Assembly (NCBI GenBank): GCA_022451965.1
Contig: JAKUNJ010000002.1
Location: forward strand, 1 to 36,286
Direction of reading: 5' to 3'
Length of the DNA: 36,286 bases
Source of the DNA: Dehalococcoidia bacterium
Lineage (GTDB): Bacteria; Chloroflexota; Dehalococcoidia; Lucifugimonadales; Lucifugimonadaceae
Part shown: piece by piece, positions 26,473-36,286 of the stretch
How positions within the stretch are numbered: the first letter of the stretch is position 1
Layout: each line of letters begins with the position of its first letter
The notes under the pieces: model-generated
Seen by the model: only the letters and a program-made list of their open reading frames with translations
The model's database searches: none
Told to the model about the DNA's origin: nothing
Translations under genes and position numbers: made by a program

Positions 26473-27396
26473 ATGGGAAAAGTACTTAAATTTTCAGGAA
26501 ATAATATAGATAGATTAGAAGTTGAAAGAAGAAACGAGGATTGGGTTTCAGAAAAAATCAATGATCCAAACTCAAAAGTCTTGGTTTACAATAGATCTAA
26601 AATTTTAGTAAAAAAAATATACTCAAATATTACTGTTAAATTTCTTAGGTTAGGTGACATTAGAGAATCTGGGATTGATCCTAAATTAATTTTACTTGGA
26701 GATCTTGGTGGAGAAATTTATCTATCTACAGACTTAAATGATGTTGATGAAGAAATAGTAAATGGACTTATTTCCAAAGATGAAGAATTTATAGACTGTA
26801 GGACTGCTGGAGACCAACTAAGTCAAGCTCAAGGTGGAATGATAAGTCAAAGTAAAAGTCAACTTGAGTGGAACAGAAAAAATTCTTTTTGTGGAATTTG
26901 TGCAGGAAAAACAGAAGGATTAAGAGGAGGGCAATCTAGAAAATGCTCAAGCTGTGAAATAGAACTTTTCCCTAGAACAGATCCAGTTATTATATCCCTC
27001 GTAACTAATGGTGAATATTGTCTTTTAGGTCAGTCAAAAGGAAGATTATCAAGACTAAATATATATTCTTGTTTAGCAGGATTTATTGACCAAGGTGAAT
27101 CTATTGAAGAAGCCGTTGCCAGAGAAATCATGGAAGAATCTGGTATAAAAGTCAAGAATGTAAAGTATTACGCATCTCAGCCTTGGCCTTTTCCTTGGTC
27201 ACTGATGATTGGTTGTCATGCTGAAGCTGAAACAGAAGAAATTAACTTTGATGAGCATGAAATGCACTCAGTAAAATGGTTTCATAGAGATGAAGTTTTA
27301 TCAGCATTAGAAGAAAAAAACGACAATTTATCAGTACCCGGCAATATAGCTATAGCCCATCATCTAATAAAGGCTTGGGCCACAAAAGAGGTCTAA
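26473..27396 (+). CDS. nudC: NADH pyrophosphatase / RNA NAD-decapping Nudix enzyme
   Basis: NudC cleaves the pyrophosphate of NAD(H) and removes NAD caps from RNA. The 307-aa protein has the family's three parts: a divergent N-terminal domain (1-130), a zinc ribbon with C140, C143, C158 and C161, and a Nudix domain with box starting at G203 (GFIDQGESIEEAVAREIM, then EESGI). The NudC-specific SQPWPFPWS is at 235-243. All catalytic residues are intact. It follows the NAD-dependent alcohol dehydrogenase after 15 bases. Its stop shares CTAA with the convergent CvpA-like gene. Confidence 0.95.
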   Translation: MGKVLKFSGNNIDRLEVERRNEDWVSEKINDPNSKVLVYNRSKILVKKIYSNITVKFLRLGDIRESGIDPKLILLGDLGGEIYLSTDLNDVDEEIVNGLISKDEEFIDCRTAGDQLSQAQGGMISQSKSQLEWNRKNSFCGICAGKTEGLRGGQSRKCSSCEIELFPRTDPVIISLVTNGEYCLLGQSKGRLSRLNIYSCLAGFIDQGESIEEAVAREIMEESGIKVKNVKYYASQPWPFPWSLMIGCHAEAETEEINFDEHEMHSVKWFHRDEVLSALEEKNDNLSVPGNIAIAHHLIKAWATKEV

Positions 27397-28022
27397 TCAG
27401 AATCTTCTCTTCTTTGTTGTGCGATATCAAGAGAATCACTGAATTCACCAGGGATTATTCCAATAAGTTGTCCACCTAGTAGATCTTTAACATCTATTAC
27501 CACTCCAACCATAATACTCTCACGGATTACTAAATCTGCTGCCTCTCTAGAGGTATCCTTTAGACTATTTTCAAACATTTTTGCAATAGCTTCTTCAGAG
27601 ATTTCAAGTCTTCCGTCTTCATCCTCATCTGGAGTATAAGTCCATCTAGCAGTTATGTTGACTATAATAGTTGTAATCAAGAATCCTAATATTAGTCCAG
27701 ATGCCAATCCTCCAACTTGATTTACCTTGTCTCCAATACCAAAAGTCATTTTGGAAACAATAGCTTGAATTACTCCACTAAATAGTTGGACTCCTAAGAA
27801 ACCTCCAATAAGTAATAGCCCATAACCAATTACTGTTACTAATCCATCACTTTCAAGTTCAAGCCCTATTGCATCAACTATCATTTGAGATAAAAATCCT
27901 CCAATAATCATAGTTACAGCTACCAATACTATATACAAGATATTTTTTACCAAACCTATTCTGAAGCCTAGAATAACTCCAAGAACAATAGGTGCTATTA
28001 GAACCCAATCATACCAATTCAT
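27393..28022 (-). CDS. CvpA-family membrane protein
   Basis: A 209-aa membrane protein of the CvpA / colicin-V-production family. It begins MNWYDWVLIAPIVLGVILGF with a conserved Asp in the first helix and a glycine-rich GFRIGLVK turn, followed by three more hydrophobic helices (about 28-46, 62-83 and 103-122). The rest (about 125-209) is an acidic cytoplasmic or external tail ending in QQRREDSD. Ribosome site AGAGG is 6 bases before the ATG. CvpA proteins are linked to envelope homeostasis; the direct function is poorly defined. It is divergent from the large-protein locus, separated by a 169-base gap. Confidence 0.8.
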   Translation of the reverse strand: MNWYDWVLIAPIVLGVILGFRIGLVKNILYIVLVAVTMIIGGFLSQMIVDAIGLELESDGLVTVIGYGLLLIGGFLGVQLFSGVIQAIVSKMTFGIGDKVNQVGGLASGLILGFLITTIIVNITARWTYTPDEDEDGRLEISEEAIAKMFENSLKDTSREAADLVIRESIMVGVVIDVKDLLGGQLIGIIPGEFSDSLDIAQQRREDSD

Positions 28023-28191: not shown

Positions 28192-31152
28192 ATGGAAAAT
28201 CTTTCAATCTCAAAATTTAGTTTCAAGAAAATTATCACATCTTCATTAATATTAATGTTTATCTTAATTTCTGGAATAAATACTCAAAATAATATATCTG
28301 CACAGATGCCACCAATGGGTGGAATGATGGGTGGAGGAATGGGTACAATGGGATCATCAGCTACAGATTCATCTTGTAGGCAAAATCCCGGAACAGGAGA
28401 AGTTTTCTGTGAAGTTGAGATGGATGTAAGTATGATGAGTATGACTCACACATCTAGTGATGTGGAACATTATGAAGGTCAAGGAATTTGGTTTCAGGGA
28501 TGTTTGATTCCTGGTCAGCAGTATGAAAACTATGAAGCTGCTTGGATAGAAAGACATTATAATGCAAATCAGGATCATAGAGGCTCTAGAGCTGGTGATC
28601 AGCAGTTTACAAACGTATTTATAAGAGGTAATATGCCGACTCAACCTGGTCAAACAATTGGAAAATGTAAGTATCAATTCTTTAAAATTGATTCTCCATT
28701 AGTACAACCTGGCCAGCCTTATCACAATCCCCAATGGGAATCTGATCAAGAAACACAAAGAATGTATGAAGAGGCAGACAGAATTAGAAGAGATGCTGAA
28801 AGAAAAAGAGCTGAAGAAGAGCTTCTTCGTGCTAAACAACAGGCAGAGCTTGATCTTCAAAGACAAGAAGAAGAAAGAAAAAGAAATGAACAACAAAATC
28901 AGGGTGGATTTGATTTATTCGGGGGCCAGGGACCTGTTGGAAATATATTTAGTAACTCATTTCAACCACCACCAGATGATGAAGTCCCTCAAGGACCTTT
29001 CATAAACTTAACTTCAATAGCTGAAATAGATAGATGGAAAACTATGGAATGTATAGGTAATACAGTCCAAGATATAACAGGTATGAGTTATGAACAAGCA
29101 TATATGGATTTTGCTTTCCCTTTGGGTGTAAGAATGATGGATGAACCAGATTTTTATTACGACGCAGTAGTAAATTGTATGCATTTGAGTTACGATAAGC
29201 TTCTCAGCGGAGCTTGGGGAGTAGATACAAATACAAATGGAATGTTTGGTGGAAAGGCTCCAAGAAATGAAATGGATCAAATGCTTCAAAACTGTATAGT
29301 GCCGCATATTTCCGATGTCTTAAATATTCCTAATGACATCATTAGAGATGACGCTTTATCAGTTGAATCTGGAAGAAGATCTGTTACAAGAGAAGAAATG
29401 CTAGCTGCTTATGACTGTTTTATAAAATTTGATGAAGATATAAGAAATAGTAATTCTTCAGGCAGTCCTCAATATTTTCCACTCAATTCTGATTTGCTTA
29501 CTTCATTTGTTTACGGAGACCAAGAAATACCTGGGCAAGCATGTATGGTAGATTCTATTTCAGACTCCAGAGGAATGAACAGAGAAGATTCTCAAAGAAT
29601 AGTTGAAGATTTAGTTAATTTCGCTGTAGGAAGGTCCGACCGGTGGGGATTTCTAGAAAGTGATGCAAACCCTCAGCACAAAAACGATGTAGTTAACAGA
29701 GTAATATCATGTAATCAAGAATTAGACTGGCTTAGGGATTACCAATCCTCAATAAGCGGAGGTGGAGTTAATTTAGAAGATATCTTTGCTAGACTTGCAG
29801 AACCTGAGTTCCAAAAATGTGTAAAAGATGAATACAAAGAACTTAGTAATGGTGATAGAGATTTTGCAGATATGATGTATGACCAAATGATTGAAGGATT
29901 TATGATGTACCAAGATCCAACAGAAATCATAAATAGACCTCTCTCATACAGGCAAACATCAACAATACTTGATTGTGCTGAAGATTTTGGTACAGACCAA
30001 GAAACTTTCAGTATAATTCAACCTTATCTTAGTCAATATACTATAGACCTCGACCAAATTGATTTTTCTTGGTCTGGAGGAATGGGATACGATCAAAAAT
30101 CTGAAACACTTATAGGTTGTATAGATGATAGTTGGCATGAAAATGATCGTGATTTGGGTAACGTAGGTGCAAATGCCGAACAAATAGTTTTCAACATTTT
30201 TGAGAGAGGAGGAAGCTTAAATGCCCTAAAGCCTCTTAATAGAGATTATACTCAAGATGAACTTGACGATGTTGTGGAGTGCTTAGAAGAAAGACCTGAA
30301 TTTGACTGGATATCACAGTATGATAATCCAAATTATGACTTTGAGCCTCTTTTTGAAAGTGATTTATTCTCTCAATCGAATGTAGATTTTCAATCTTCTG
30401 CTGCTGATTTTAGACAAAATATTGCCACTAATAACAATTCTAATATGGTGTCTGGTTCACTTATGGGTGGTGGAGCTCTTGAAAATCTTCGATTAGACTT
30501 AGTCAATTCTGCTAGAGGTTCTGCTGCTGAAGATTGTATGGTAGCAAACCTTGCAAGAGAAAAAGGCGAAACTGAAAACTATATTAAGACTTCATACATA
30601 GCTAATTTAATTTGGGAACCTACTCAAAGACCTTCAAAAAATGAAAGAGAAGCTCTTGAAAATTGTGAATCTCAAATCAGATCTGCGACTCAAGGTAAAG
30701 GTGGATTAAGCTCACTACTAAAAATAGGTTCTTATGGTGATCCTGATTATTTTGCACAACCTTCAGACAGCCAAAGAGCATGTATGGTGAATGAGTACAA
30801 AAAAGTCTTTGGTTATATGATTGAAAGTTCTGGTGCTAATCCGGATGAAAGTGCTGCAAAAGCTATTTCAGAAATATCATTACCCGGAACTTATAATGGT
30901 TCTCATCCAATTTTAGGAGATAAAGCTCCTAACTTAAGACCTCCCTCATCGATTGAACTTGAAGCATTATCAAACTGTAAGATAATAGATTTGTATGTTT
31001 TCGAGGGAAGTAGGCTCAGGAAGCTGATACCTGGAGTTGATACAGCTGATCTTCCTGTAGGAGAGCTCATAAATAATCCTTCAAATCTAGCTATATTAGG
31101 TATATTAATAACACTGTTCTTTTCAGTACTACAAATGGTGAGAGGTAAATAA
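28192..31152 (+). CDS. Large secreted, membrane-anchored cysteine-pair repeat protein (copy 1)
   Basis: A 986-aa protein of no family known to me. Order: signal peptide (about 10-37, likely cut after NISA), a Gly/Met-rich stretch (39-55), an N-terminal domain with C62, C73, C104 and C159, a charged coiled coil (about 185-235), a linker, then seven segments bounded by cysteine pairs: 287/329, 368/409, 451/507, 543/595, 643/697, 782/825 and 864/929. Segments tend to open with C-(M/I/V) and close with a pattern like R-x-[ST]-x-x-E-x-x-x-x-x-x-C. A single C-terminal helix (about 966-983) and a short basic MVRGK tail follow. All cysteines would be outside the cytoplasm and probably form disulfides. 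No ribosome site is visible. The next gene starts at its stop (TAATG). Confidence 0.88.
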   Translation: MENLSISKFSFKKIITSSLILMFILISGINTQNNISAQMPPMGGMMGGGMGTMGSSATDSSCRQNPGTGEVFCEVEMDVSMMSMTHTSSDVEHYEGQGIWFQGCLIPGQQYENYEAAWIERHYNANQDHRGSRAGDQQFTNVFIRGNMPTQPGQTIGKCKYQFFKIDSPLVQPGQPYHNPQWESDQETQRMYEEADRIRRDAERKRAEEELLRAKQQAELDLQRQEEERKRNEQQNQGGFDLFGGQGPVGNIFSNSFQPPPDDEVPQGPFINLTSIAEIDRWKTMECIGNTVQDITGMSYEQAYMDFAFPLGVRMMDEPDFYYDAVVNCMHLSYDKLLSGAWGVDTNTNGMFGGKAPRNEMDQMLQNCIVPHISDVLNIPNDIIRDDALSVESGRRSVTREEMLAAYDCFIKFDEDIRNSNSSGSPQYFPLNSDLLTSFVYGDQEIPGQACMVDSISDSRGMNREDSQRIVEDLVNFAVGRSDRWGFLESDANPQHKNDVVNRVISCNQELDWLRDYQSSISGGGVNLEDIFARLAEPEFQKCVKDEYKELSNGDRDFADMMYDQMIEGFMMYQDPTEIINRPLSYRQTSTILDCAEDFGTDQETFSIIQPYLSQYTIDLDQIDFSWSGGMGYDQKSETLIGCIDDSWHENDRDLGNVGANAEQIVFNIFERGGSLNALKPLNRDYTQDELDDVVECLEERPEFDWISQYDNPNYDFEPLFESDLFSQSNVDFQSSAADFRQNIATNNNSNMVSGSLMGGGALENLRLDLVNSARGSAAEDCMVANLAREKGETENYIKTSYIANLIWEPTQRPSKNEREALENCESQIRSATQGKGGLSSLLKIGSYGDPDYFAQPSDSQRACMVNEYKKVFGYMIESSGANPDESAAKAISEISLPGTYNGSHPILGDKAPNLRPPSSIELEALSNCKIIDLYVFEGSRLRKLIPGVDTADLPVGELINNPSNLAILGILITLFFSVLQMVRGK

Positions 31153-31853
31153 TGACTACTACTAGAGTTCCTACAGGTATAAATTTGGTTTTCAGAGTGA
31201 TTTCAAGGATGATGGTAGCTTTACTTGTATCTCTGCCAATAATAGCATTAGGTGTTGCGCTTATAATATACTCTCAAACTGATGGAAGTGTACCAATTTG
31301 GACTGGATTTGCAGCTCTGATCTCTGGGCTACTACTCTTAGTTTTAGGTTTTTATATGACTGCTGTTGGAGCTTTCCCAAAGCCTACTTTAGGTCAAGGA
31401 GAAGAAGTTCAAATTGAAAGACATCCTACTATGAAACCTGCATATGCAAGAATAGTCGTTGCATTACCCTTATTTTTCATTAGTGCGGTTTTATACGTCT
31501 CAACTGATTTCGCTTATATATTCCCTTTCATAACTTTCATAATTGGATCATGGTTATTTTTTAAAGGAACTATGAGGTATTTCAGAAATCTTCATATAAC
31601 TTATATTGTTACCGATAGAAGAGCAATTTATATGTTTAAGTTTTTATACTTACATACAAACGAAATTCCTGTTGGAAGAATAGTTCAAATATCAGAAAAA
31701 AGGACTCTGATTGAAGCTCTTACCGGAAGGGGAACTGTAGTTGTTTCATCAGGTATAGGAAGTAGAATGACCATTAGTATGGAAGAAATAGATAATCCTG
31801 GAAGCGTAGCGGAAGCTCTTAGAAGTATGCTTCCATCAACAAGAGAAGCTTAG
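31152..31853 (+). CDS. Bacterial PH-domain (bPH2/YdbT-like) membrane protein, copy 1
   Basis: A 233-aa protein with four hydrophobic helices (about 18-40, 50-72, 99-118 and 121-139) and a C-terminal bacterial pleckstrin-homology domain (about 148-226). The PH segment has the family's TYIVTDRRAIYM, EIPVGRIVQISEKRT, GRGTVVVSSG and a closing IDNPGSVAEAL. A cytoplasmic PH domain is likely. Such proteins are membrane proteins of mostly unknown role. The ATG overlaps the stop of the large protein (TAATG), so the two are made together, and the same pair recurs at 35826. This coupling suggests that the PH protein serves the large protein, for example as membrane partner. Confidence 0.88.
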   Translation: MTTTRVPTGINLVFRVISRMMVALLVSLPIIALGVALIIYSQTDGSVPIWTGFAALISGLLLLVLGFYMTAVGAFPKPTLGQGEEVQIERHPTMKPAYARIVVALPLFFISAVLYVSTDFAYIFPFITFIIGSWLFFKGTMRYFRNLHITYIVTDRRAIYMFKFLYLHTNEIPVGRIVQISEKRTLIEALTGRGTVVVSSGIGSRMTISMEEIDNPGSVAEALRSMLPSTREA

Positions 31854-31857
31854 GAGG
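31852..31857 (+). promoter_or_regulatory. Strong ribosome binding site of the coiled-coil membrane gene
   Basis: A full AGGAGG overlaps the TAG stop of the PH gene and is 6 bases before the ATG at 31864. It is one of the best Shine-Dalgarno sites in the window and contrasts with the two large genes, which have none. Confidence 0.75.
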
Positions 31858-31863
31858 CAATAA

Positions 31864-32502
31864 ATGGATATTGGTTTTGTCACAAGTTTAGTATCAATAC
31901 CTTTGGTAGGAGCACTTGGAACAGCAGCTTGGAGAATTCAAGCAACTATAACAGCAAGAAAACAAAGTGAAATTGATCAATTAAAAACAGAAATTGAATC
32001 AATAAGAACTATTCATGCTGAACAGATGACTTTGCAGAAAGAAAAAACTGAACTTACTAATGACCAGATGGATACTCTTATTAGTAATAGAACAAAAGAA
32101 ATGGCAGAAAAAATTGAAACTGAATTCATCAGTAAGGTAAGACAATGGAAACAGTATGCAATTGTAGGAATAACTGCGTCAACTGGCTTATTAATCTTTG
32201 TGTTAGGATTATTATTTGCTATGATTCCAAGGTCGGCATCAGATGAACCAGTTATGACATTGGTTAATGATGAAAATGTCAGAAATGAAATAACAAGATT
32301 TGGTCTTCATAACGACTCAGTTGCAGGAACAGTTTTATTTGCCCATGGGCCTACATTTATGTGGGGTACGATAATAGGTGCTTTAATTTTGGTTATTGCT
32401 ATAGTTATAATTGGTGTAAACACATTTTTTACCTCTAAGCCAAAAACTACCATATCATCTGATGATAATGGAGAAAATGTCATAAATGAAACCAGTAATT
32501 AA
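31864..32502 (+). CDS. Coiled-coil membrane protein of unknown function
   Basis: A 212-aa protein with a first hydrophobic segment (about 5-22), a charged probable coiled coil (about 28-90, rich in E/K/Q), a second helix (about 98-117), a short loop, and a third helix (about 165-187) before a polar Ser/Asp/Asn-rich tail. No known domain was recognised. It starts 10 bases after the PH gene behind an AGGAGG site, and overlaps the next gene by 17 bases. It is present once in the window, between the two copies of the large/PH pair; whether a second copy follows copy 2 lies outside the window. Confidence 0.8.
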   Translation: MDIGFVTSLVSIPLVGALGTAAWRIQATITARKQSEIDQLKTEIESIRTIHAEQMTLQKEKTELTNDQMDTLISNRTKEMAEKIETEFISKVRQWKQYAIVGITASTGLLIFVLGLLFAMIPRSASDEPVMTLVNDENVRNEITRFGLHNDSVAGTVLFAHGPTFMWGTIIGALILVIAIVIIGVNTFFTSKPKTTISSDDNGENVINETSN

Positions 32503-32809
32503 GAACAAAAATGATCATAAACAGCACCCTATTCTAGGTTCACCTGAAGGTGTACCAACGGTAGTATCCTTGTATCATGATCATCAACCAGGAGAAACAA
32601 GTACTCATCATACTCATCCCTGGGAGCATCAAGCTTACATAACTAGAGGTGAAGGAATCATTTTTGTAGATGGAGAAAAATACCCAATAAAAGAGGGTGA
32701 TTTTGTGTTAATTCCTCCAAACGCAGATCATTATTTTGAAAATACCGGTAATTCTGTTCTTAGTAGAGTAACATTCAATCCGCTGGCAAGTGAAGATCAC
32801 TTAGGCTAA
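32486..32809 (+). CDS. Single-domain cupin protein
   Basis: A 107-aa cupin_2 protein. First cupin motif: G-E-x-x-x-H-H-T-H-P-W-E-H (about 37-48) with the metal-ligand histidines and Glu, then GEGIIFVDGE; second motif: GDFVLIPPNADHYFENTG (about 71-88) with the last ligand His. All four typical ligands appear present. The ATG at 32486 overlaps the coiled-coil gene by 17 bases. Small cupins of this kind bind metal and ligands in many pathways; no substrate can be deduced. It may simply be a downstream gene of the operon. Confidence 0.85.
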   Translation: MKPVIKNKNDHKQHPILGSPEGVPTVVSLYHDHQPGETSTHHTHPWEHQAYITRGEGIIFVDGEKYPIKEGDFVLIPPNADHYFENTGNSVLSRVTFNPLASEDHLG

Positions 32810-32823
32810 ATCATATAATATAA

Positions 32824-32853
32824 TTAACAGATTTACTATAAATAGTGTAATAT
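32824..32853 (+). promoter_or_regulatory. Candidate promoter with internal dyad before copy 2
   Basis: TTAACA (32824-32829), an 18-base spacer and TAATAT (32848-32853). The spacer contains the inverted repeat ACTAT-AA-ATAGT (32835-32846), a possible operator. The start would be near 32860, only about 15 bases before the ATG at 32875. The box matches are weak. Confidence 0.3.
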
Positions 32854-32874
32854 TTAATAGTAAAAATAATTTCT

Positions 32875-35826
32875 ATGGTTATCTCTAGTTTAAAAAAAAT
32901 TATAGCTGCAAATTTAATTTTAGTATTTTTTCTATTTTCAGGAATAAATACACAAAATAATATTTCAGCTCAAATGCCTTCTTCTGGAGGAGATTTTTTA
33001 TTTGAAGAATCAGAGTGTAGAAATAATCCTGGTACAGGTGAAGTCTTCTGTGAATTAACTCTTGATACAAGTATGCAAATAATGACGCAGACTGTAGCGC
33101 CTAAAGAATACTATGAAGGTCAAGGAGTTTGGTTTCAAGGATGTAGAATTCCAGGTCAAGATCATAATACTCATGATTCTGCTTGGATTGAAAGACACTA
33201 CACTGCTGAAGCTGGATCTATTGGTACTTGGGGAGAAAGTGTTACTAACTTCTATAATTTGGATCCATCTGCAAAAGTTACTCATGTTTTATTTAGAGGA
33301 AATGTACCTCAAGAGCCTGATAGACAAAGAATTAGGTGTCAATATCAATTTTTTACAGTAGATTCCCCTTTAGTACAACCTGGTCAGCCTTACCATAATC
33401 CTCAATGGGAAGCAGATCAAGAAACACAAAGAATGTATGAAGAGGCAGACAGAATTAGAAGAGAAGCTGAAAGAGCAAGAGCTGAAGAAGAGCTTCTTCG
33501 TGCTAAACAACAGGCAGAACTTGATCTTCAAAGACAAGAAGAAGAAAGAAAAAGAAATGAACAGGATCAGGGCGGATTTCAAGATTTATTTGGACAAGGA
33601 CCTGTTGGAAATATATTTAGTAACTCATTTCAACCTCCTGATGATTTACCACTAGGTCCTTACATAAATTTAACTGAAATTCCCTCTGATGCAAGCGAAG
33701 TTGTAACAGATTGTGTCGCTAATTTTATATCTTCAGAAACAGGAATGAGTTACGAGCAAGCATATATGGATTTTGCTTATACACTTGGTGTAAGATGGCT
33801 ACAAGATCCAGATTTTTATTACCACGCAGTAGTAGATTGTATGCATTTGAGTTACGATAAGCTTCTCAGCGGAGCTTGGGGAATTGATGGAGATTATTTC
33901 ACAGAAAATCCTCCTCTAGGAGACTTAGATAATCTTATAGATAACTGCATAGTCCCTCATCTATCAAATGCTTTAAATATTCCTAGAGAAATCATTTTAG
34001 ATGATATCGAAATTGTCCAAAGTGGTAAAAGATCAGTAACAAGAGAGGAAATGTTGGCTGCCTACGATTGTTGGATAACTCATGATGGCAGATATAATAA
34101 TAACTTTCAAGAACCCCCTCAAAATGGTGGTGGTTATGAGACCTTAGATATAGGATTGCTATTTGAGACTATTTATGGAGGTGAAGAAATACCTGGTCAA
34201 AACTGTATGCTTAATTCACTAAGTTCCATACATTTTGATTTAGGTTTCTCGCACTCCATAGTAGACAGTTTAGTTGACTTTGCCGTTGGCCGAACTGATG
34301 ATTGGCGTATGTATGAAGATCGTCTAAGTGATGAGCATCAAAATTATGTAATAAACACTGTTATTGGATGTAACCAAGAATTAGACTGGCTTAGAGACTA
34401 TCAAGCTTCACTTACTGAAGGTCCTAATCTTGAAGCTGTATTTGCTAGGTTAGTTCAACCAGAATTTAGAGATTGTATTATTGGAAAATTTGAAGACTAT
34501 GGTGATATAGAGGAAAGTTGGGGTAATGAATTATATGACAGGATGCTAAAAGGATTTGTTGAAGCTCAAGATCCAACAGAATATACTAACAGGCCTCTTG
34601 GTGAACAACAATATAATTCAATAGTTGATTGTGCAGTTGAGTTTGAAGTTGATCCAGAAACTCTAACATATGTCCCTGCATACCTAAGCCAGTACACACA
34701 CTTTATTGAAGAGGTCGAATTTTCGTGGTCTAGAGGACTTGATGCAGAAGATAAATATGACAGGCTTGTTGAATGTATAGCCGATGGGTTTGAAAACTCA
34801 GGTTATGGAGATGATTTAGTAAGAAAAGCTGAAGAATCTGCTGATACCATGATGTGGAATGTATTTTATAGTGGCTTAGGCGTTAATTCCCAAAAACCAT
34901 TAGGAAGAGATTTTACTGGTATTGAATTAGATACTGTTTTTGATTGTTTGGAACAAAAGCAAGAATTTGAATGGATCGATAATTTTTATAATAGTAATTA
35001 TGATTATGAACCTCTTTTTGAAAGTGATTTATTTAGCCAATCTAATGTAGATTATCAATCTTCTGCTGCTGATTTTAGGCAGACTATATCAAGTAACACT
35101 TCTGGACAAGCAAATTCTAATATGGTATCTGGATCTCAAATTCTAGGAGAACCTTTAGAAATGGAAAGGCTAGAAGCAGTTAATTTAGCTAGAGGAGCAT
35201 CTGCTGAAGATTGTATGGTAGCAAACCTTGCAAGAGAAAAAGGCGAAACTGAAAACTATATCAGATCTTCCTATATAGCTAATTTAATTTGGGAACCTAC
35301 TCAAAGACCTTCAAAAAATGAAAGAGAGGCTCTTGAAAATTGTGAGTCTCAAATCAGATCTTCGACTAATGGATTAGGTGGATTAGAATTATTATTACGG
35401 TTTGGTTCTTACGGTGATCCTGATTATCTATCTGAACCTTCAGATACCCAAAGAGCATGTATGGTGAATGAGTACAAAAATGACTTTGGTTATATGATTG
35501 AAAGTTATGGAGGAAACCCAACAGAAAGTGCTGCAAAAGCTATTTCAGAAATATCATTGCCCGGAACTTATAATGGTTATCATCCAATTTTAGGAGATGT
35601 TCCTAACGTAAGACCTCCCTCATCCAAAGAACTTAATGCAATATCTAACTGTAGAGTTGAAGATTTATTTATTTATGAAGGAAGTAGACTCAGGAAGCTT
35701 ATACCTGGAGTTAATACAGCCGATCTTCCTATAGGAGAGCTTATAAATAATCCTTCAAATCTAGCTATTATGGGTATATTAATAACACTGTTCTTTTCAG
35801 TACTACAAATGGTGAGAGGTAAATAA
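32875..35826 (+). CDS. Large secreted, membrane-anchored cysteine-pair repeat protein (copy 2)
   Basis: A 983-aa paralogue of the 986-aa protein, with the same plan: signal peptide (about 6-32), N-terminal domain with C48, C59, C90 and C155, coiled coil (about 180-230), seven cysteine pairs (280/322, 358/399, 444/499, 534/586, 634/691, 780/823, 862/926) and a C-terminal helix (about 962-980) plus VRGK tail. It lacks the Gly/Met-rich stretch after the signal. Pair spacings are almost the same in both copies (41-43, 52-57, 64-65 residues), and no cysteine is unmatched. Linkers and segments 3-5 are the most divergent. No ribosome site is evident. Function unknown; disulfide-stabilised surface structure is an inference. 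Confidence 0.88.
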   Translation: MVISSLKKIIAANLILVFFLFSGINTQNNISAQMPSSGGDFLFEESECRNNPGTGEVFCELTLDTSMQIMTQTVAPKEYYEGQGVWFQGCRIPGQDHNTHDSAWIERHYTAEAGSIGTWGESVTNFYNLDPSAKVTHVLFRGNVPQEPDRQRIRCQYQFFTVDSPLVQPGQPYHNPQWEADQETQRMYEEADRIRREAERARAEEELLRAKQQAELDLQRQEEERKRNEQDQGGFQDLFGQGPVGNIFSNSFQPPDDLPLGPYINLTEIPSDASEVVTDCVANFISSETGMSYEQAYMDFAYTLGVRWLQDPDFYYHAVVDCMHLSYDKLLSGAWGIDGDYFTENPPLGDLDNLIDNCIVPHLSNALNIPREIILDDIEIVQSGKRSVTREEMLAAYDCWITHDGRYNNNFQEPPQNGGGYETLDIGLLFETIYGGEEIPGQNCMLNSLSSIHFDLGFSHSIVDSLVDFAVGRTDDWRMYEDRLSDEHQNYVINTVIGCNQELDWLRDYQASLTEGPNLEAVFARLVQPEFRDCIIGKFEDYGDIEESWGNELYDRMLKGFVEAQDPTEYTNRPLGEQQYNSIVDCAVEFEVDPETLTYVPAYLSQYTHFIEEVEFSWSRGLDAEDKYDRLVECIADGFENSGYGDDLVRKAEESADTMMWNVFYSGLGVNSQKPLGRDFTGIELDTVFDCLEQKQEFEWIDNFYNSNYDYEPLFESDLFSQSNVDYQSSAADFRQTISSNTSGQANSNMVSGSQILGEPLEMERLEAVNLARGASAEDCMVANLAREKGETENYIRSSYIANLIWEPTQRPSKNEREALENCESQIRSSTNGLGGLELLLRFGSYGDPDYLSEPSDTQRACMVNEYKNDFGYMIESYGGNPTESAAKAISEISLPGTYNGYHPILGDVPNVRPPSSKELNAISNCRVEDLFIYEGSRLRKLIPGVNTADLPIGELINNPSNLAIMGILITLFFSVLQMVRGK

Positions 35827-36286
35827 TGACTACTACTAGAGTTCCTACAGGAATAAATTTGATTTTCAGAGTGATATCGAGAATGATGGTTGCTCTACTA
35901 GTTTCTCTTCCAATAATTGGACTAGGTATAGCATTGATTATTTACTCTCAAACCGATGGTAGTGTACCAATTTGGACAGGATTTGCAGCTTTAATCTCTG
36001 GATTTCTATTATTGATTCTTGGTTTTTATATGACAGCAGTTGGAGCATTTCCAAAGCCTACTTTAGGTCAAGGAGAAGAAGTTCAAATTGAAAGACATCC
36101 TACTATGAAACCTGCATATGCAAGGATAATAGTTGCGTTACCATTATTTTTCATTAGTGCAGTATTATACGTCGCAACTGATTTCGCTTATATTTTCCCA
36201 TTTATCACTTTCATAATTGGATCTTGGTTATTTTTCAAAGGAACTATGAGATATTACAGAAATCTTCATATAACTTATATTGTTAC
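35826..36286 (+). CDS. Bacterial PH-domain membrane protein, copy 2 (3' end outside window)
   Basis: The first 153 codons of a close paralogue of the protein at 31152-31853. The translation MTTTRVPTGINLIFRVISRM and the four-helix region are nearly the same, with a few substitutions (for example VSTDF to VATDF, RYFRN to RYYRN). The window ends in TYIV just as the PH domain begins. It overlaps the large gene's stop by one base (TAATG), as in copy 1. Confidence 0.9.
   Translation, partial: MTTTRVPTGINLIFRVISRMMVALLVSLPIIGLGIALIIYSQTDGSVPIWTGFAALISGFLLLILGFYMTAVGAFPKPTLGQGEEVQIERHPTMKPAYARIIVALPLFFISAVLYVATDFAYIFPFITFIIGSWLFFKGTMRYYRNLHITYIV

Follow-up and report, generated by a model that had tools for sequence, protein, structure and literature searches.

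The window analysed here is a 36,286-nucleotide stretch (positions 1 to 36,286, forward strand) from contig JAKUNJ010000002.1 of assembly GCA_022451965.1, a Dehalococcoidia bacterium of the family Lucifugimonadaceae, and represents contig 2 of a 1.25-Mb genome with a completeness of 98%. It carries two genes for large cysteine-rich secreted proteins (proteins 1 and 2), and behind each of them lies a gene whose product is a membrane protein carrying a bacterial PH domain (partners 1 and 2). We describe the two secreted proteins, the C-terminal tail module with which they end and the pairing of this tail with the PH-domain partner in SAR202, a group that ranks among the most abundant bacteria of the deep ocean. 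The distribution of the tail and of the partner was scored in 247 genomes of the order and in a phylum-wide sample of ~300 genomes outside it, and that of the Cys-rich ectodomain in 250 genomes of the order (nine of the same genus and 241 others). The genomes compared are metagenome-assembled, and the structural models are of moderate confidence. Coordinates are collected in Table 1.

Proteins 1 and 2 (986 and 983 residues) are paralogues with 63% identity, and a genome-wide search returned no further copies. Each contains 18 cysteines, of which four lie within residues 62-159 of protein 1 and 14 within residues 287-929, at matching positions in protein 2. In an alignment of 11 members, all from the same genus and 39-82% identical to protein 1, the 18 cysteine columns are invariant wherever sequence is present, apart from one ambiguous X, and additional cysteines occur in none of the members. 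The matched cysteines of the two open reading frames had been pointed out in an earlier, sequence-only reading of the window, and the alignment both confirms their positions and indicates a conservation that is far beyond chance. Full-length relatives were found by profile search in eight of the nine genomes of the genus, whereas the Cys-segment ectodomain was found in 0/241 of the other genomes of the order. The genomes that encode relatives are all marine SAR202/Chloroflexota assemblies (TMED70, OSU_BB06, EAC10, NAT118, PW8, SP316 and others). No relatives were found among viral contigs, so proteins 1 and 2 are not phage genes. Neither the proteins nor their profile gave a Pfam, NCBIfam or PDB sequence match above threshold, and Foldseek gave no fold match at E <= 0.001 for the full model or for a crop of residues 530-935; a match to LntA_helical (E 0.16) was judged to be due to chance. 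The earlier view that no named family applies is therefore upheld, although that reading had missed the restriction of the ectodomain to one genus. Judged by these comparisons, proteins 1 and 2 are a real, unnamed, genus-specific family of large Cys-rich, predicted secreted surface proteins.

Hydropathy places a hydrophobic stretch at the N-terminus of each protein and a single hydrophobic helix at its C-terminus, and predicts no membrane segment in between. AlphaFold2 was run on 12 sequences and gave a mean pLDDT of 61 for the whole protein and of 73 for the 530-935 crop. The N-terminal four-Cys domain is predicted to be all-beta, with a weak fold resemblance to Ig-like adhesin and CBM3 sandwiches (Z <=5.2, VIA-align) that lies within the usual noise of models, and is followed by a coil in which E, K, R, D and Q make up 75% of the residues over a stretch of 40. 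Hydropathy and the models thus agree with the domain order proposed earlier (signal peptide, four-Cys domain, charged coil and C-terminal membrane helix), with the signal peptide remaining putative. Identity between the paralogues is highest in the coil (91%), segments 6-7 of the Cys array (81%) and the tail (93%), and is lower in the beta domain (56%) and segments 1-5 (46%), which fits variable outer parts on a constant base. Outside the membrane, each protein is predicted to present the four-Cys beta domain and the charged coil together with an array of helical units, about seven in number and each bounded by Cys.

Outside the genus, matches to the family profile were confined to its final 26-47 residues and lay in each case at the C-terminal end of a protein that was otherwise different, and a separate tail model (profile A5) was therefore built. 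The tail is present in 35 of the 247 genomes at E <= 0.01 and in 32 at E <= 0.001, and as many as seven copies occur in one genome (G012); the phylum-wide sample outside the order yielded two weak matches (0.004-0.007). The ectodomains that precede it include PD40/TolB-like propellers, RCC1 repeats, leucine-rich repeats and an NHL-like six-bladed propeller, and in other tail proteins, which have no Pfam match, what seem to be small beta domains precede long charged coils. Three tail proteins of 960-1324 residues (L128, L133 and L136) combine a PD40 propeller with very long charged coils and are unlinked to a PH-domain gene. An N-terminal hydrophobic stretch was found in 30 of the 34 tail open reading frames tested, some of the remainder being cut at contig ends, and hydropathy indicated an inner membrane helix in none of the 34. 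None of the curated CTERM models of NCBIfam matched any of 11 tail proteins at E values up to 1, and the cluster of basic residues expected after such a helix is absent, the usual ending being [RK]-G-[KNR]. These comparisons establish the tail as an independent, reusable module of ~48 residues, with a single predicted transmembrane helix, on unrelated SAR202 proteins. The C-terminal membrane helix of the sequence-only reading is accordingly present, but that reading had overlooked that it is also a separate mobile module paired with a PH-domain neighbour. No description of the tail, of the partner or of SAR202 coiled-coil or sorting proteins was found in the open-access literature (subscription papers were not covered).

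Conservation within the tail is concentrated on the helix. In 46 distinct tails, P25, L28, G32, T36, Q43, R/K46 and G47 are invariant or nearly so and define the face P-x2-L-x3-G-x3-T-x3-[TS]-x2-Q-x2-[RK]-G. The conservation peaks sharply at 100 degrees per residue, with none of 5000 column shuffles as strong, so that one side of the helix is constrained. Neither simple anchoring nor cleavage of a signal would require such a face, which points to recognition within the membrane. In most SAR202 lineages the helix is preceded by an RG[FL]F motif.

Partner 1 is a predicted four-helix membrane protein that ends in a bacterial PH domain. It scores 18.1 bits against bPH_2 (PF03703), under the 22-bit cut-off, whereas a homologue (L078) reaches 33.0 bits; bPH_2 is the sole domain found in Pfam and NCBIfam, with no protease or transpeptidase family. 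Partner 2, which runs past the end of the window, is 95% identical to partner 1 over 153 residues, and the start of each partner gene overlaps the stop of the preceding secreted-protein gene. The partner is found in 34 of the 247 genomes of the order, with one weak match (1.7e-4) in the phylum-wide sample outside it. With the tail scored at E <= 0.001, 31 genomes carry both, one the tail alone, three the partner alone and 212 neither. Of 39 partner genes, 35 lie directly 3' of a tail gene on the same strand, at a distance of 2-119 bp. The four exceptions differ in kind. In G041, a diverged tail stands at the end of the upstream propeller-type gene, in a different reading frame and preceded by a PTPTNTPVP repeat tract (L069:7504-8393), and the frame change may be either a real frameshift or an assembly error; in G115, the partner is truncated, with its N-terminal helices gone and no tail gene before it (L148:976-1311, minus strand), and looks like a remnant; the partner of G205 is at a contig end and that of G213 is a fragment. 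Several genomes combine many tails with one partner (7:1 in G012, 4:1 in G031 and 3:1 in G227), and most of these tails are unlinked to the partner gene. In two assemblies the cassette occurs on two contigs in apparently identical form (L009 and L014 in G002; L063 and L064 in G022), which is probably assembly redundancy, so that copy counts there may be inflated. Taken together, the genome comparisons demonstrate a pairing of tail and partner across the order, with synteny maintained behind changing ectodomains. If the N-terminus of the partner is inside, its PH domain and a conserved HPTMKPA loop would be cytoplasmic and would lie beside the [RK]-G-x end of the tail.

We consider it likely, although well short of assured, that proteins 1 and 2 are surface-protein paralogues with a reusable anchor helix that is recognised in the membrane by the PH-domain protein encoded by the next gene. 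Several observations weigh against this. The Fisher test of the tail-partner association (p 7e-35) counts related genomes as independent. The tail and partner genes also lie side by side in most cases, so that simple co-inheritance accounts for part of the association. The partner was not found in G068, a genome of 55% completeness that contains two tails and is the sole tail-only case. In the genus of the window RG[FL]F is replaced by GSRLRKLIPG, yet the helix face is kept there, and an upstream motif that is exchanged while the face stays itself points to recognition in the membrane. Finally, the small-x3-small-x3-small pattern of the face (G32, T36 and T/S40) could equally mean self-association, small-x3-small being a usual helix-packing motif. 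The tails would then form homo-oligomers through G-x3-T-x3-S packing under the coiled coil, as in stalk or S-layer anchors, the PH-domain protein would be no more than a common companion in the operon or a membrane factor of general use, and the long charged coils of many tail proteins are consistent with this. The partner nevertheless stays behind tail genes with wholly different ectodomains, some of which have no long coil (RCC1, leucine-rich repeats, L067), and tails that are not linked to a partner gene are nearly confined to genomes in which the partner is present; we regard self-association as unlikely. Somewhat less probable still is a classical C-terminal sorting signal of the PEP-CTERM, LPXTG or GlyGly-CTERM kind, cut by some other protease or transpeptidase with the PH-domain protein as an accessory. 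A motif, a helix and a basic end, together with many-to-one pairing and with neighbouring genes where only one target exists, do mirror the logic of GlyGly-CTERM and rhombosortase (PMC3237569). The enzyme signature is missing from the partner, however, and the CTERM models are silent; a cleavage signal should conserve its motif, whereas here the helix face is best conserved and the preceding motif changes in the genus of the window; and peptidoglycan, the target of sortases, is absent from SAR202 (PMC10444878).

The 14 cysteines of the array were described earlier as exactly seven segments that form a repeated, disulfide-closed domain. Seven is a fair description, with the number resting on the assumption that adjacent cysteines pair up. 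Segment profiles were obtained by cutting the family alignment at the Cys pairs and were compared by HHalign. The mean score of the 21 segment pairs is 14.7, against 9.5 for Cys-preserving shuffles and 9.1 for interior-reversed controls, and 13 of the pairs outscore all 20 of their Cys-preserving shuffles; well-separated pairs are limited to 1-5, 3-4, 4-5 and 6-7, with HHalign probabilities of 24-47%. Mutual homology of the segments is thus statistically present for the set and weak pair by pair. AlphaFold2 predicts helices throughout the segments, and in the crop segments 4-7 share one order (a helix with the first Cys, a helix, and a helix whose end coincides with the second Cys or falls just short of it), which supports a repeated helical unit. 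The repeat proposed earlier is therefore supported as a collective signal and by the helix order of segments 4-7, more weakly in the individual comparisons, and no described repeat family was matched in Pfam, NCBIfam, PDB or Foldseek searches. A resemblance of residues 530-624 to truncated haemoglobin (best Z 6.3, VIA-align) was rejected as lying within the noise of helical models, with no evidence of a haem site.

Disulfides within the segments are plausible. The alternative that the 14 cysteines are free thiols, or ligands of metal or haem, would accord with the failure to find VKOR or Thioredoxin_4 (DsbA-like) in the genome, in a search that did not extend to DsbB, other DsbA families or quiescin-type oxidants. 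It is difficult to reconcile with the lack of any CxxC, CXXCH or clustered Cys/His motif, the spacing of about 36-85 residues, the strictly even number of cysteines and the predicted extracellular location in an aerobic ocean lineage, and we give it little credence. A different question is the origin of the segments. Secreted SAR202 proteins commonly contain a 28-residue repeat, C-[IV]-x3-[LI]-G-x2-P-x5-[LM]-[TS]-x-[ED]-...-C, singly or in tandem arrays, and some tail proteins carry one to three copies; four array proteins gave no convincing Pfam or NCBIfam match. The segments might be expanded copies of this repeat, of which 65 copies in arrays of up to ten were collected, and the summed similarity of the seven segments to it (83.0) beats all 40 Cys-preserving shuffles (mean 57.4, maximum 73.3). 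Only segment 4 beats all of its own shuffles when taken alone, however, with probabilities <=14% throughout, and the repeat model, run as an HMM against the family, gave no hit. Tested twice, the relationship is suggestive as a sum and not established, and such a derivation appears doubtful.

The cassettes are accompanied by further genes. A CvpA-like gene adjoins a tail gene in two genera, that of the window, in which it is divergent from the cassette, and g5, in which it is on the same strand (L064, L065, L066, L071 and L147). The gene behind partner 1, which encodes a 212-residue protein, has the same position in further members of the genus (alignment A3), and its open reading frame overlaps that of the cupin protein between the two cassettes by 17 bases.

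Table 1. Features of the window and loci of the 28-residue repeat in SAR202 proteins
Feature	Position	Strand	Basis
CvpA-like membrane protein (PF02674)	27393..28022	-	Pfam Colicin_V, E 2e-12
Secreted protein 1, 986 aa, 18 Cys	28192..31152	+	ORF list, alignment
Putative signal peptide, protein 1, residues 1-38	28192..28305	+	hydropathy only; ends ISAQ
Four-Cys all-beta domain (predicted), protein 1, residues 55-165	28354..28686	+	AlphaFold2, pLDDT about 70-88
Charged coiled coil, protein 1, residues 181-235	28732..28896	+	single predicted helix 180-234 (AlphaFold2)
Cys segment 1, C287-C329, protein 1	29050..29178	+	alignment, AlphaFold2
Cys segment 2, C368-C409, protein 1	29293..29418	+	alignment, AlphaFold2
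Cys segment 3, C451-C507, protein 1	29542..29712	+	alignment, AlphaFold2
Cys segment 4, C543-C595, protein 1	29818..29976	+	alignment, AlphaFold2 crop
Cys segment 5, C643-C697, protein 1	30118..30282	+	alignment, AlphaFold2 crop
Cys segment 6, C782-C825, protein 1	30535..30666	+	alignment, AlphaFold2 crop
Cys segment 7, C864-C929, protein 1	30781..30978	+	alignment, AlphaFold2 crop
Tail module, protein 1, residues 939-986, GSRLRKLIPG..NNPSNLAILGILITLFFSVLQMVRGK	31006..31149	+	profile A5, E 8e-22
Partner 1, four-helix membrane protein with C-terminal bacterial PH domain	31152..31853	+	bPH_2, four transmembrane windows
212-aa membrane/coil protein	31864..32502	+	weak DUF2207_C, E 2e-4, below cut-off
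Cupin protein between the two cassettes	32486..32809	+	Cupin_2, E 5e-17
Secreted protein 2, 983 aa, 18 Cys, paralogue of protein 1	32875..35826	+	ORF list, alignment
Tail module, protein 2	35680..35823	+	profile A5, E 2e-21
Partner 2, PH-domain membrane protein	35826..36286, on to contig position 36482	+	homology; past window end
28-residue repeat	L165:1246-3183	-	
28-residue repeat	L166:1345-2715	-	
28-residue repeat	L167, L168, L170, L171, L144		

SAR202 bacteria are monoderm, have no peptidoglycan and carry an S-layer-like coat (PMC10444878, PMC11994032), so that a membrane-embedded anchor for surface or S-layer-associated proteins would be a sensible role for the tail. Each protein would be exported by the general route, as its hydropathy suggests, and stop-transfer of the C-terminal helix would leave nearly the whole chain outside. 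The helix face could then bind the partner in the membrane, consistent with the pairing, the order-wide synteny and the conservation of the face, and the partner would insert, retain, cluster or position the tail-bearing proteins, one partner serving up to seven of them per genome. Their final role may be in the surface layer, perhaps in association with the S-layer. The fullest form of this proposal, an undescribed anchoring system in which an uncleaved helix tag is read in the membrane by a PH-domain protein and the surface layer of a peptidoglycan-free lineage is so assembled, is put forward tentatively, as a possibility that we would not yet bet on. The partner offers a first candidate for the machinery by which SAR202 bacteria hold their surface proteins. 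The 48-residue tag is diagnostic and lets the anchored surface proteins of SAR202 be listed genome by genome. If correct, the proposal would supply a function for a subfamily of the bacterial PH-domain membrane proteins, a class with few known roles, and would extend C-terminal protein sorting beyond proteases and transpeptidases.

The tail resembles the modules of GlyGly-CTERM/rhombosortase (PMC3237569), PEP-CTERM/exosortase (PMC1569441) and MYXO-CTERM/myxosortase (PMC11980579) in being a short one-helix C-terminal module on unrelated secreted proteins that occurs several times per genome, is co-distributed with a single family of membrane proteins and is encoded beside it when only one target is present. 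The SAR202 system differs in that its partner belongs to the membrane proteins with a bacterial PH domain and shows no protease signature, in the replacement of the basic cluster by an end that usually has one R/K, then G and a last residue, in the best conserved part being a helix face instead of a motif, and in its confinement to SAR202. Since the partner is not a protease and the helix face is conserved, we do not assign the tail to the CTERM class; the likeness is at most one of logic. SlaB-type S-layer stalks consist of a signal peptide, beta domains, a coiled coil and a C-terminal membrane helix. Both slaA and slaB have been annotated in SAR202 (PMC11994032). Compared by architecture and not by sequence, proteins 1 and 2 share these elements, as well as a setting with an S-layer instead of peptidoglycan, but the order of coil and Cys array differs. 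Like the bPH_2 (PF03703) proteins YdbS/YdbT and DdE/DdF, the partner combines membrane helices with a PHb2 domain. It departs from them in having four helices and one C-terminal PH domain, and belongs to a distinct SAR202 subfamily of which the window protein matches PF03703 weakly. DdE and DdF are required for the export of a leaderless bacteriocin in Enterococcus and provide a precedent for a PHb2 protein that handles membrane-crossing polypeptides (PMC8657885).

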